From Bradyrhizobium sp. WBAH42 (GTDB lineage: Bacteria > Pseudomonadota > Alphaproteobacteria > Rhizobiales > Xanthobacteraceae), in the NCBI RefSeq assembly GCF_024585265.1, contig NZ_CP036533.1:6395001-6459000 (forward strand): 64,000 nt of DNA, written 5' to 3'. Below are positions 23,094 through 29,415 of this stretch, in pieces. The first letter of the stretch is position 1; every line of letters starts with the position of its first letter. A program made the position numbers and the translations under genes. The notes under the pieces are model-generated. The model made no database searches and was not told where the DNA came from. It was given only the letters and a program-made list of their open reading frames with translations.

Positions 23094-23894
23094 TCAGTAG
23101 AACTTGTGGAAATGATGGATCGGCCCGTGGCCGTGGCCGACGCTGAAGCGGTCGGCGGCGGCGATCGCGGCGCTGATCCATGCCTTGGCGTTGCGCACGG
23201 CGGCCTCGAGGTCCTCGCCCTTGGCCAGCCCCGCCGCGATGGCGGAGGACAGCGAGCAGCCGGTGCCGTGGGTGTTGCGGGTGGCCACGCGCGGCGCGGC
23301 GAGCGCGATCGTGGTCGCGGCAGTGACGAGATAGTCGGTGCTCTCGGCACCCTCTCCGTGCCCGCCCTTGATCAGGACGGCGCGGCAGCCCAGCGCCAGC
23401 AGGCGGCGTCCCTGGCTTTCGATCTCGGCCTCGCTCGCCGCCACCGGCTCATCGAGCAGGGCCGCGGCCTCCGGCAGGTTCGGCGTGATCACGGCAGCCA
23501 GCCGCATCAGCCTGGTGCGCAGGGCGTCGACGGCTTCAGCGGCGAGCAGGCGATCGCCGGAGGTCGCCACCATGACGGGATCGAGCACGACGTGCCGCGG
23601 TGCCCAGCGCGACAGCGCGGCCGCGATGGCGTCGATGCTGGCGGCCTGGGCCACCATGCCGATCTTCACCGCACCGATGTCGAGGTCGGAGAACACCGCG
23701 TCGATCTGCTCGGTGACGAACCCGGCCGGCACCGCGTGAATGCCGGTCACGCCGCGCGTGTTCTGCGCCGTTAGCGCCGTGATCACGGAGGCGCCGTAGA
23801 CGCCGAGCGCGGCAAAGGTCTTCAGGTCCGCCTGGATGCCGGCGCCGCCGCTCGAATCGGAACCGGCGATGGTGAGTGCGACCGGGGTCGTCAT
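23094..23894 (-). CDS. thiD: Hydroxymethylpyrimidine/phosphomethylpyrimidine kinase
   Basis: A 266-residue ribokinase-fold enzyme that phosphorylates HMP and then HMP-P during thiamine diphosphate synthesis. It shows [22 protein letters not shown] at the start (substrate loop), [12 protein letters not shown] and the anion-hole motif [21 protein letters not shown] 23894 (MTTPVALT) gives the usual family length. ATG 23906 is also possible, and the frame is open to 24035 without conserved sequence. No other thi gene is adjacent, and no TPP riboswitch was recognised upstream. Confidence 0.9.
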
Positions 23895-24207
23895 CGCGGG
23901 GGACATGTGCTTGAGGACGCCGCCATGGCCTGTCCTAGCGCGACCGCGGAACGCCAGCAAGCGCGCCGAATCGCCGCCGAGCGTGATTCGCGAATCAATT
24001 GCGCCTTGCGAATCAGTCGGACACGGCGCGGTCAAAGGCCCGCAATGATGCGGGCTTGAAAATGCAACGGCGCCGGACCCTTGGTATAGTTGTGTACCTT
24101 AACGTGCTTCGCCGGTCAGGCGAGACGTCAGGTGGTGGAACCGTCCGACGACCCGATCTTGCAGGTCGCCCGGCCCGCAAGCCATCTGAAAAGACTCTTG
24201 GGGTGGA

Positions 24208-26172
24208 ATGATGTGGGCCTTCTTCGAACGTCTCCTCGACTCGTCCATGCTGTCGCCGCACGGCATCTGCCTGTTGTGGGAGCCTGAGCTGATCTGGCTT
24301 CACGTCGTTTCCGACGCCTGCATTGCCGCCGCCTATTTCTCGATCCCGTTCGCCCTCGCCATCCTCGTCACCAAGCGGCGCGACCTCAAGTTCGGCTGGG
24401 TCTTCTGGGCGTTCGCGATCTTCATCATGGCCTGCGGCCTGACTCACGTGCTGTCGATCTACACGCTCTGGGTTCCGGTCTACGGCATCGAGGGCATGGT
24501 CAAGGCCGCCACCGCGGTCGCCTCGGTCTTCACCGCCGCCGCACTCTGGCCGTTGCTGCCGAAGATCCTGACAATCCCCTCGCCGTTCGAGCTGCGACAG
24601 GTCCAGGCCGCGCTCGAGGAGGAGGAAATCAAGAGCCGTGACGCCGCGCTGCTGCTGCAGCAGGTCCGCGATGCCCAGCGCGCGATGCGCGAGAGCGTGG
24701 CGCGCCTCACCGCGATCGTCGAGACCGCCGTCGACGGCGTCATCCTGTTCGATGCGCAGGACCGCATCCTGCTGTTCAATCCGGCCTGCGAGCGCTTGTT
24801 CGGCTACCGCGCCGACGAGGTGATGAACCGCAACGTCGGCATGCTGATGCCCGAGGCGGATGCGGCGCGGCATTTCGCGATAGGCGGCGAGGCCATCGGC
24901 CTGCGCAAGGACGGCACGACGTTTGCGATGGACCTCTCGGTCGGCCAGGCGCGGCAGGACGGCGAATTGATCTTCGTCGGCATCGTCCACGACCTCACCG
25001 GGCGCAAGCTGACCGAGCAGCAGCTCCAGCAGGCGCAGAAGATGGAGATGGTCGGCCAGCTCTCCGGCGGCATCGCGCACGACTTCAACAATCTGCTGAC
25101 CGTCATCATCGGCAATGCCGAGCACCTGAGCGAGCAGCTCAAGGCGAGGCCGGACCTCAAGCGCTTTGCCGAGGACATCTGCCAATCGGGCGAACAGGGC
25201 GCCGAGCTGACGCAGCGCCTGCTCGCCTTCAGCCGCCGCCAATTGCTGCGGCCTCAGACGATCGATTGCCGCAGCCTGCTCGATTCCATGTTCAAGCTGC
25301 TCAAGCGCACCTTGCGCGAAGACATCGAGATCAGGACGAGCTCCGGGCCCGGCACGGTCCTGGCCTTTGCCGACCGCGCCCAGCTCGAATCCGCCGTGCT
25401 GAATCTTGCGCTCAATGCGCAGGATGCCATGCCATCGGGAGGCCACCTCACGCTGGCCACTGAGCTGGTCACGATCGACGATGATCGCGCCCTTCACCCG
25501 GAGGTCGCGCCCGGCAGCTACGCCCTGATCTCGGTCACCGATGACGGCGAAGGCATGACGCCCGAGATCACCGCACGCGCTTTCGAGCCGTTCTTCACCA
25601 CCAAGGAGGTCGGCAAGGGTTCGGGCCTCGGCCTCAGCATGGTCTATGGCTTTGCCAAGCAATCGGGCGGCCATGTCTCGATCTACAGCGAGGCAGGTCT
25701 TGGAACCACGGTCCGGATCTACCTGCCGCGCGCGAACACCGGCGGGTCGCAGGCCGATCTTCCCGACGGCGAGGACACGGCGCCGCGAGGCTACGAGACG
25801 ATCCTGATCGTCGAGGACGATCCGTTCGTCCGCTCCTCCGTCATTCGCAGGGTGGAAGCGCTCGGATATCGCGTCGTTGCCGCGGTCAACGGCAAGGATG
25901 CCCTGCAGCAGCTGCAGGGCGATCCCGGCATCGACTTGCTGTTCACCGATATCGTGATGCCCGGCGGCATGAGCGGCTGGGACCTCGCCGATCAGGCGCG
26001 GCGGCTGCGTCCCGGCCTGCCGGTCCTGTTCACCTCGGGCTACGCGCTGGAGACCCTGGTCGCCCAGGGCCACGCGCGGCCGCAATCGATCGTGCTGACC
26101 AAGCCCTATCGCAAGGTCGAGCTCGCCCAGCGGCTCAGGGATGCATTGGCCGCAGCGGTGGTCCCATCCTAG
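24208..26172 (+). CDS. Hybrid histidine kinase with ETR1-like ethylene-binding domain
   Basis: 654 residues. Three N-terminal membrane helices (about 28-55, 63-85, 95-118) carry the plant ETR1 ethylene-receptor signature: Asp36, Tyr43 and Pro47 in VSDACIAAAYFSIP, then Cys76 and His80 in IMACGLTHVLSIYTLW, the copper(I) ligands in ETR1. A coiled segment, a PAS domain (about 160-275), a HisKA domain with His291 (GGIAHDFNNLL), a HATPase (N-box near 400, GEGM, GSGLGLSMV) and a receiver with Asp581 (FTDIVMP) and Lys632 follow. It is therefore a membrane sensor kinase with a built-in receiver. Ethylene as the ligand is inferred from family knowledge. No regulator gene is adjacent. Confidence 0.9.
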   Translation: MMWAFFERLLDSSMLSPHGICLLWEPELIWLHVVSDACIAAAYFSIPFALAILVTKRRDLKFGWVFWAFAIFIMACGLTHVLSIYTLWVPVYGIEGMVKAATAVASVFTAAALWPLLPKILTIPSPFELRQVQAALEEEEIKSRDAALLLQQVRDAQRAMRESVARLTAIVETAVDGVILFDAQDRILLFNPACERLFGYRADEVMNRNVGMLMPEADAARHFAIGGEAIGLRKDGTTFAMDLSVGQARQDGELIFVGIVHDLTGRKLTEQQLQQAQKMEMVGQLSGGIAHDFNNLLTVIIGNAEHLSEQLKARPDLKRFAEDICQSGEQGAELTQRLLAFSRRQLLRPQTIDCRSLLDSMFKLLKRTLREDIEIRTSSGPGTVLAFADRAQLESAVLNLALNAQDAMPSGGHLTLATELVTIDDDRALHPEVAPGSYALISVTDDGEGMTPEITARAFEPFFTTKEVGKGSGLGLSMVYGFAKQSGGHVSIYSEAGLGTTVRIYLPRANTGGSQADLPDGEDTAPRGYETILIVEDDPFVRSSVIRRVEALGYRVVAAVNGKDALQQLQGDPGIDLLFTDIVMPGGMSGWDLADQARRLRPGLPVLFTSGYALETLVAQGHARPQSIVLTKPYRKVELAQRLRDALAAAVVPS

Positions 26173-26268
26173 ACTTGCGAATGCGCCGCGCAGGAGCCGC
26201 AAGCTGGCTTGCTAAATCCGGCCGGTTTTGGCCTATTAGCCGCCAGATCCGCTTTCGGAGTGCCCGCG

Positions 26269-26514
26269 ATGGTTCCTTTCTTCGTCCAAATCAAATGCAA
26301 GCTCGGCCAGTCCTATACGGTGGCCAATGCGCTTGCCGAAGCCGAGATCGCCTCCGAGATCTATTCCACGGCCGGCCAATACGACCTCCTGGTGAAGTTC
26401 TACGTCGACAAGGATACCGACATCGGCCATTTCGTGAATGAGAAGGTGCAGGTGCTGCCGGGCATCCAGGACACCCTCACCATCATCACCTTCAAGGCGT
26501 TCGGCACCGGCTAG
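26269..26514 (+). CDS. Stand-alone RAM (Lrp/AsnC ligand-binding) domain protein
   Basis: An 81-residue protein consisting only of the RAM domain of Lrp/AsnC regulators (VPFFVQIKCKLGQSYTVANA, TAGQYDLLVKFYV), with no helix-turn-helix. Such proteins form rings and bind amino acids or act as partners of full Lrp proteins. ATG 26269 has GGAG eight bases upstream. It lies 96 bp after the kinase gene on the same strand and might be co-transcribed, though a functional link is not evident. Confidence 0.85.
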   Translation: MVPFFVQIKCKLGQSYTVANALAEAEIASEIYSTAGQYDLLVKFYVDKDTDIGHFVNEKVQVLPGIQDTLTIITFKAFGTG

Positions 26515-28131: not shown

Positions 28132-29415
28132 TCAAGCCGCGTTCAGCGCCTGCGCGAGGTCGGCGATCAGGTCCGACGGGTTCTCGATGCCGATCGAGAG
28201 CCGGATCGTGGAATCGAGCACGCCGATTTTCCGGCGGATGTCGGCGGGAACGCCGGAATGGGTCATCGTCGCCGGCAGGCTTGCGAGCGATTCCGTGCCG
28301 CCGAGACTCACCGCCAGCTTGAGAATCTGCAGCGCGTTGAGGAATTTCACCGCCGCCTCCTTGCCGCCGACGATGTCGAACGAGAAGGTCGACCCCGCGC
28401 CGAGGCATTGCCGCGCGAACACACGCCCCGATGGCGAGGCCTCTTCGTGATGACCGAGGTAATGGACCTTGGCGACCTTCGGGTGGTCGCGCAAAAAGTC
28501 CGCCACCAGCCGCGCATTCGCATCGGCTTTCTCCATCCGCAGGCTGAGCGTCTCGAGCGAGCGGTTGATCATCCAGCAGGAATGCGGATCGAGCTGGGTG
28601 CCGATGGCGCCGCGCAGCGCCTTGATGCCCTTCATGATCGCTTTCGATCCGAGCGCGGCGCCCGCGATCAGGTCGGAATGGCCACCGACATACTTGGTCA
28701 GCGAATACAGCGACAGGTCCGCGCCGTGCTCGATGGGCCGCTGAAACACCGGCCCGAGCAGCGTGTTGTCGCAGGCGATGATCGGCGTGTGTCCCTGCGC
28801 CTTGCCGATGGCATCGGCGGTGCGGCGGATCATTGCGACGTCGACGAGGCCGTTGGTCGGATTGGCGGGCGTCTCGATCAGGATCATCGAAACCCGCCCC
28901 TTGCCCATGGCCTCCTCCGAGGCCTGCTTGACCGCCGTCTCGTCGATTCCGTCGGCAAAGCCGACGGCGCCGATCGACAGGCGCGCGAGCGTGTTCGTCA
29001 GCAAGGTCTCCGTCCCGCCATAGAGCGGCTGCGAGTGCAGGATGACATCGCCGGGGCGAACGAAGGCCAGGATCGTGGTTGCGATGGCCGCCATGCCGGA
29101 CGAGAACAGCGCGCAACTCTCGGTTCGCTCGTAGATCGCGAGCCTGTCCTCGACGATCTCGCTGTTGGGATGATTGAAGCGAGAATAGACCAGGCCCGCG
29201 CCCATGCCTTCCGGCGGCTCGCGCCGACCGGCGACGTAGTCGAAGAAGTCCTGCCCGTCCTCGGCGGTCTTGAACACGAAGGTGGAGGTCAGGAACACCG
29301 GCGGCTTAATGGCGCCCTCCGACAATTGCGGGTCATAGCCATAGGTCAGCATCAAGGTTTCCGGATGCAGCATATGATTGCCGATATGGGTCTTCGACGG
29401 GAACGGTTTTGCCAT
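28132..29415 (-). CDS. Cystathionine gamma-synthase family PLP enzyme
   Basis: A 427-residue Cys/Met-metabolism PLP enzyme. It has [45 protein letters not shown], and the PLP lysine in [12 protein letters not shown]. The family includes cystathionine gamma-synthase, O-acylhomoserine sulfhydrylase and methionine gamma-lyase; the long insert ([19 protein letters not shown]) marks the subgroup annotated simply as cystathionine gamma-synthase family. The exact reaction is not decidable here. It is convergent with the CHRD gene. Confidence 0.85.

Follow-up and report, generated by a model that had tools for sequence, protein, structure and literature searches.

A predicted ethylene receptor with a fused receiver at a fixed, optional site in Bradyrhizobium

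In the plant partner, nodulation is under ethylene control, and to our knowledge accounts of ethylene in rhizobial biology have mostly taken the view of the plant or dealt with bacterial ACC deaminase. Plant ETR1 is composed of an ethylene-binding domain (EBD), a GAF domain and a hybrid kinase with a receiver. Besides the Asp, Cys and His of the site, the remaining four residues required in AtETR1 are reportedly Y32, I35, P36 and I62, as is said of Wang et al. 2006. The bacterial receptors compared here include AzoEtr1 of Azospirillum brasilense and SynEtr1, which we take to be slr1212. In the excerpted text of one report, seven residues are given as required for ethylene binding in AtETR1; Asp25, Cys65 and His69 are numbered there together with Lys91, the lysine linked to output, and the ETR1 His is placed in helix 2 (PMC11819568). 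According to the same excerpts, the fragment AzoEtr1(1-130) produced in yeast binds ethylene, little or no saturable binding was seen with disrupted cells, and neither D35A nor C75A restored biofilm formation, the use of two plasmids being a caveat (PMC11819568). That ethylene lowers kinase activity is there based on evidence called indirect for SynEtr1 and is called a prediction for AzoEtr1 itself, and the authors allow roles of AzoEtr1 beyond ethylene responses (PMC11819568).

The window analyzed here is the whole stretch of 64,000 nucleotides from Bradyrhizobium sp. WBAH42, which spans 6395001-6459000 of the contig, and the features of the locus are listed in Table 1. The open reading frame 24208-26172 (+), whose product is hereafter called the window protein, starts with ATG, and the promoter and terminator scans gave 0 sites each. 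A reverse-strand ORF of 729 aa (24013-26202) was taken as a mirror frame of GC-rich coding DNA and set aside. An earlier note on this DNA had described an ETR1-like EBD ahead of PAS, HisKA, HATPase and receiver domains, and Pfam confirmed every domain above its cut-off. The HMM search with the EBD proposed in that note detected ETR1_N (PF25487) at residues 27-122 with E = 1.1e-37, its score of 128.7 bits exceeding the curated cut-off of 27, while the spans of PAS (166-221), HisKA (283-345), HATPase_c (389-509) and Response_reg (532-643) were all above their own cut-offs. In the profile search of the genome, the same EBD was detected on DNA with E = 2.1e-38 as the sole PF25487 match (one contig, 8,285,880 bases), and the same search of 14 control genomes gave zero matches; the EBD match is therefore far above chance. 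The coupling to a two-component kinase is present, with HisKA, HATPase_c and Response_reg above cut-off and His291 and Asp581 in place, and the motif check found kinase and receiver motifs in place.

Table 1. Features of the receptor locus, with positions in the window
Feature	Position	Strand	Basis
Hybrid histidine kinase with N-terminal ethylene-binding domain, 654 aa	24208..26172	+	ORF and Pfam domains
Likely ribosome-binding site GGGGTGG, purine-rich	24200..24206	+	Read from sequence, inferred
Ethylene-binding domain (EBD), residues 27-122	24286..24573	+	PF25487 and AlphaFold helices
PAS domain, residues 161-273, FixL-like in sequence	24688..25026	+	TIGR00229, PF00989
HisKA dimerisation/phosphoacceptor domain, residues 283-345, His291 in GIAHDFNN	25054..25242	+	PF00512 and motif
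HATPase_c catalytic domain, residues 389-509, N- and G-box motifs	25372..25734	+	PF02518 and motifs
Receiver domain, residues 532-643, phosphoacceptor Asp581, LTKPY with Lys632	25801..26136	+	PF00072 and motifs
thiD (phosphomethylpyrimidine kinase), divergent upstream neighbour marking the fixed site	23094..24035	-	PF08543
Stand-alone Lrp/AsnC ligand-binding domain gene, directly downstream	26269..26514	+	PF01037

The residues Asp36, Tyr43, Pro47, Cys76 and His80, which had been read as the ethylene- and copper-binding residues, were each found exactly at these positions, and Ile46, Ile73 and Lys99 were added as further site residues. The seven-residue set in the EBD is complete (D36, Y43, I46, P47, I73, C76 and H80); Asp36, Tyr43, Ile46, Pro47, Ile73, Cys76 and His80 match the seven of AtETR1, and Lys99 matches its output lysine. 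For comparison with the closest system, the sequences of AzoEtr1 (525 aa) and of the 135 aa regulator whose gene overlaps that of the receptor were re-derived from A. brasilense Sp7, plasmid ABSP7_p1. Between the two EBDs the alignment has no gaps, with 52 of 96 residues identical and equal site residues, and Asp35, Cys75, His79 and Lys98 of AzoEtr1 correspond to Asp36, Cys76, His80 and Lys99 of the window protein, every site residue being offset by one. An AlphaFold model of the EBD, for which 42 sequences were used as input, contains three long helices at residues 26-56, 63-88 and 92-121 (mean pLDDT 85.4, pTM 0.65). The helix 26-56 carries Asp36, Tyr43, Ile46 and Pro47, and the helix 63-88 carries Cys76 and His80, four residues apart. 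The earlier expectation that the Cys/His pair should lie on facing helices was mis-stated, since the model has both on helix 63-88. No template for the EBD was found in the PDB by sequence at E up to 1, and Foldseek gave no fold match at E ≤ 0.001.

Selection on the domains was estimated with 13 of 16 orthologues (L046, L052 and L057 were dropped, the anchor string not being found). The whole-gene median dN/dS was 0.19, and the medians were 0.078 for the EBD, 0.263 for the PAS, 0.162 for the kinase and 0.299 for the receiver, with 0.160 and 0.373 for the two linkers. Among the domains, purifying selection was strongest on the EBD, and such conservation of the sensor speaks for a functional ligand site.

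The predicted ethylene sensing is strongly supported by the complete set of site residues, by the alignment with AzoEtr1 and by the selection on the EBD. On such sequence grounds, the product of the gene is quite probably an ethylene receptor in the membrane, of the same kind as AzoEtr1 and SynEtr1. In this receptor, a dimer would hold Cu(I) through Cys76 and His80 and bind ethylene in the membrane. By transfer from AtETR1, ethylene binding would change, and most likely lower, the phosphorylation of His291. From His291 the phosphate would pass to Asp581 in the fused receiver and from there, through a phosphotransfer protein, to a regulator of surface attachment or metabolism. The ethylene would probably come from plant roots or soil microbes. 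Counting against the receptor explanation, no response regulator gene adjoins the window kinase, and the absence of the gene in many relatives indicates that it is dispensable.

PF25487 was detected in 137 of the 195 genus genomes (113 with a strong match and 24 with a weak match only, E > 1e-30), in 30 of the 149 family-draw genomes (7 of the 30 from the genus) and in 20 of the 289 class-draw genomes, own genome included. The ethylene-receptor gene is optional within the genus. Nineteen plasmid records with PF25487 were found, including 7 of Azospirillum and one of Rhizobium from a nodule, and for the best 120 of 1681 related proteins the named sources were all Bradyrhizobium except one labelled Frankia sp. 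RB7. The bradyrhizobial origin guessed in the earlier note was sound. For one 770 aa protein (P0030), an AsnC domain and no receiver were listed, perhaps due to a frame error.

Of 20 hybrid-type loci chosen by us, 16 resemble the window in having the kinase gene flanked by thiD on its upstream side and by the AsnC-like gene on its downstream side; in the other 4 the gene lies elsewhere. Among the 58 PF25487-negative genus genomes, 24 were examined (15 listed as negative, and 9 inferred from their absence among the 137 positives), and thiD and the AsnC-like gene adjoin without the kinase in all 24. In one of these, a 32-residue C-terminal kinase remnant with 75% identity lies between the two genes (L146 of G018, 1349-1444), which is a direct sign of kinase gene loss. 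In a phylogeny of thiD with 41 rows, of which 17 have the kinase and 24 lack it, presence changed 8 times, with at least 5 of the changes forced by well-supported branches. This tree is limited to a single gene and a chosen sample, and it cannot tell gain from loss. The 8 changes, compared with a shuffled mean of 13.2, indicate that presence is also clustered by descent. Given one common site, repeated loss of the kinase is the simplest reading, and a transfer of the whole thiD-kinase-AsnC region is possible.

The likely start of the AsnC-like gene is 26269, rather than the mechanical TTG at 26209. Its product (26269-26514) has no DNA-binding part, and the gene adjoins thiD with or without the kinase. 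Considered as a dedicated partner of the kinase, it was rejected: it stays where the kinase is gone and is thus probably not such a partner. Also near the receptor gene, 28132-29415 (-) encodes a cystathionine gamma-synthase family protein (NF005455), and the methionine-type chemistry of this product is a possible link to ethylene.

The vacated sites could suggest that the window gene is itself a relic or non-functional and kept by chance, as the kinase is missing in 24/24 of the sampled negative genomes, one with the remnant in L146, and the reading frame is interrupted in at least one relative (L026/L058). In the latter (G176), the hybrid-type frame ends after 211 residues and the rest matches further on, an apparent pseudogene or sequencing error. 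However, the window gene has a full frame, its median dN/dS is 0.19 overall and 0.08 in the EBD, and its catalytic motifs are in place, and we consider a relic highly improbable.

The binding site is conserved to different degrees among the matches. All seven site residues and Lys99 were kept in 60/60 rows from strong genus matches (L010-L069, in which six genes occur twice). In ten rows chosen by us among the weak matches listed (L070-L079), Tyr43Phe, Pro47Ala, Ile73Val or Ala and His80Arg were found, five also with Ile46Thr, while Asp36, Cys76 and Lys99 were retained in all ten. A named-genome scan, which was built from the Arg class and is no measure of the frequency of other classes, gave 32 loci; 30 of them, all titled Bradyrhizobium, have Arg for His and 27 of the 30 keep Cys, and the remaining two are one Nostoc locus with an intact site and one not alignable. 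The members of the His80Arg class, which also has Phe for Tyr43 and Ala for Pro47, are L070-L079, L125, L126, L157-L184, L186 and L187; L077 has the EBD, HisKA, HATPase and receiver and no PAS. In the EBD tree, which has long branches and no set root, four Arg rows form one clade (100/100) within a supported 20-row set that is otherwise intact. If the root lies outside this set, the His-to-Arg change arose once from an intact ancestor. Judged from its residues, the Arg class has probably lost the ethylene/copper binding of ETR1 type, and it may sense something other than ethylene.

Among the class- and family-draw loci, all seven residues were present in 26 of 51 aligned rows (51 of 52 loci, L098 being left out; five rows are from the genus and some are partial). 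Another genus form has an intact EBD, HisKA and receiver and no ATPase domain by Pfam in 3/3 scanned proteins (L032, L068 and L069), and such a receptor could not phosphorylate itself. L036 is likely the same form, judged by length and ends only; these proteins have about 355-385 aa.

Such variants bear on a different reading of the EBD, namely a copper- or redox-responsive membrane sensor, or a domain binding another small gas or olefin, with ethylene not the physiological ligand. The EBD persists on a hybrid kinase after loss of the His ligand in 10/10 of the chosen weak-match rows, and 30 of the 32 named loci have Arg for His, 27 of these with Cys; this persistence within the genus indicates that the scaffold remains usable when the ethylene site is incomplete. 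The AzoEtr1 authors, in the excerpted text, also leave room for non-ethylene roles (PMC11819568). The window protein, however, retains the whole site and has the EBD as its most constrained domain, and we regard a ligand other than ethylene as improbable here, the ethylene receptor being preferred.

The plant-associated lifestyle assumed in the earlier note is plausible, as NodC (746.7 bits, cut-off 550) and ACC deaminase (589.8 bits, cut-off 392) were both detected in the own genome. Together with the general knowledge of ethylene control of nodulation on the plant side, these two genes would agree with a symbiosis determinant that reads host ethylene to control nodulation. Co-occurrence was analyzed in 195 genus genomes, with counts not corrected for descent. 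NodC was present in 39/63 genomes with the hybrid-type gene and 66/132 without (Fisher p = 0.13), the hybrid-type set being defined by open-frame length (650 or more) and not by alignment; this figure leans towards NodC, not significantly. The corresponding numbers were 64/113 and 41/82 for any strong PF25487 match (p = 0.39), and 76/137 and 29/58 for any match (p = 0.53). The nodulation link by co-occurrence was therefore rejected, and as presence does not track NodC, the link is unproven. Moreover, the receptor gene adjoins thiD at 6.42 Mb, far from nodC at 7.72 Mb. A role as symbiosis determinant thus appears unlikely, and a general function in the life on roots or in soil agrees better with the data than one specific to nodulation. 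From the proposal of ETR1-like sensing of plant ethylene for nodulation, the predicted sensing stood, by the residue set, the AzoEtr1 alignment and the selection, and the nodulation part was not supported.

Tentatively, the Bradyrhizobium repertoire could have diversified into an intact hybrid receptor whose fixed site has been vacated repeatedly, intact paralogues including the ATPase-less form, and a His-to-Arg class, probably of single origin, re-purposed to a non-ethylene signal. Through the intact receptor, bradyrhizobia would then adjust their life on the root surface to ethylene from the host, without dependence on nod genes. The intact receptor occurs in NodC-positive and NodC-negative bradyrhizobia, and with it one could ask by simple genetics whether the bacteria themselves respond to ethylene. 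As the gene is naturally present or absent at one site and the His-to-Arg class can serve as an inherent negative control, this question is directly testable, and a PF25487 match alone does not mean ethylene binding.

In the comparison with known kinases, the nearest PDB sequence of the kinase part was 5idj (E = 8.1e-54), named only histidine kinase, followed by CckA (5idm); CckA is a PDB neighbour of the kinase core, yet the score of the CckA equivalog model was far below cut-off. Likewise, FixL is the nearest PDB sequence of the PAS, yet the FixL equivalog model scored far below cut-off. In the alignment, the PAS is 15 residues shorter opposite the FixL haem-pocket stretch dsyisryrttsdphi; the haem-ligating histidine of FixL is presumably His200. 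With this stretch missing, a haem of FixL type is unlikely, and the haem-FixL reading of the PAS was discarded.

AzoEtr1 resembles the window protein in having a PAS followed by a histidine kinase and an alphaproteobacterial host, and over the whole aligned length, EBD included, 174/521 residues are identical (33%). AzoEtr1 is plasmid-encoded and works with AzoRR-etr1, a 135 aa response regulator whose own gene overlaps that of the receptor, whereas the window protein has a fused receiver; no separate response regulator overlaps its gene as in the AzoEtr1 system, the next gene being AsnC-like. The cyanobacterial SynEtr1 and GeiEtr1/2, as described in the excerpted text, also carry an N-terminal EBD on a histidine kinase, and GeiEtr2 ends in a receiver like the window protein; they differ from it by a cyanobacteriochrome in SynEtr1 and by GAF domains in GeiEtr1/2, whereas the window protein has the PAS only (PMC6682694). 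Compared with plant ETR1, the window protein has a PAS instead of the GAF domain (no GAF domain by Pfam at E ≤ 0.001) and a bacterial CckA-like kinase core. It shares with plant ETR1 the EBD residues and their order and the hybrid kinase with receiver, and a receiver fused to an ethylene receptor is not new in itself, as GeiEtr2 and plant ETR1 both have one.
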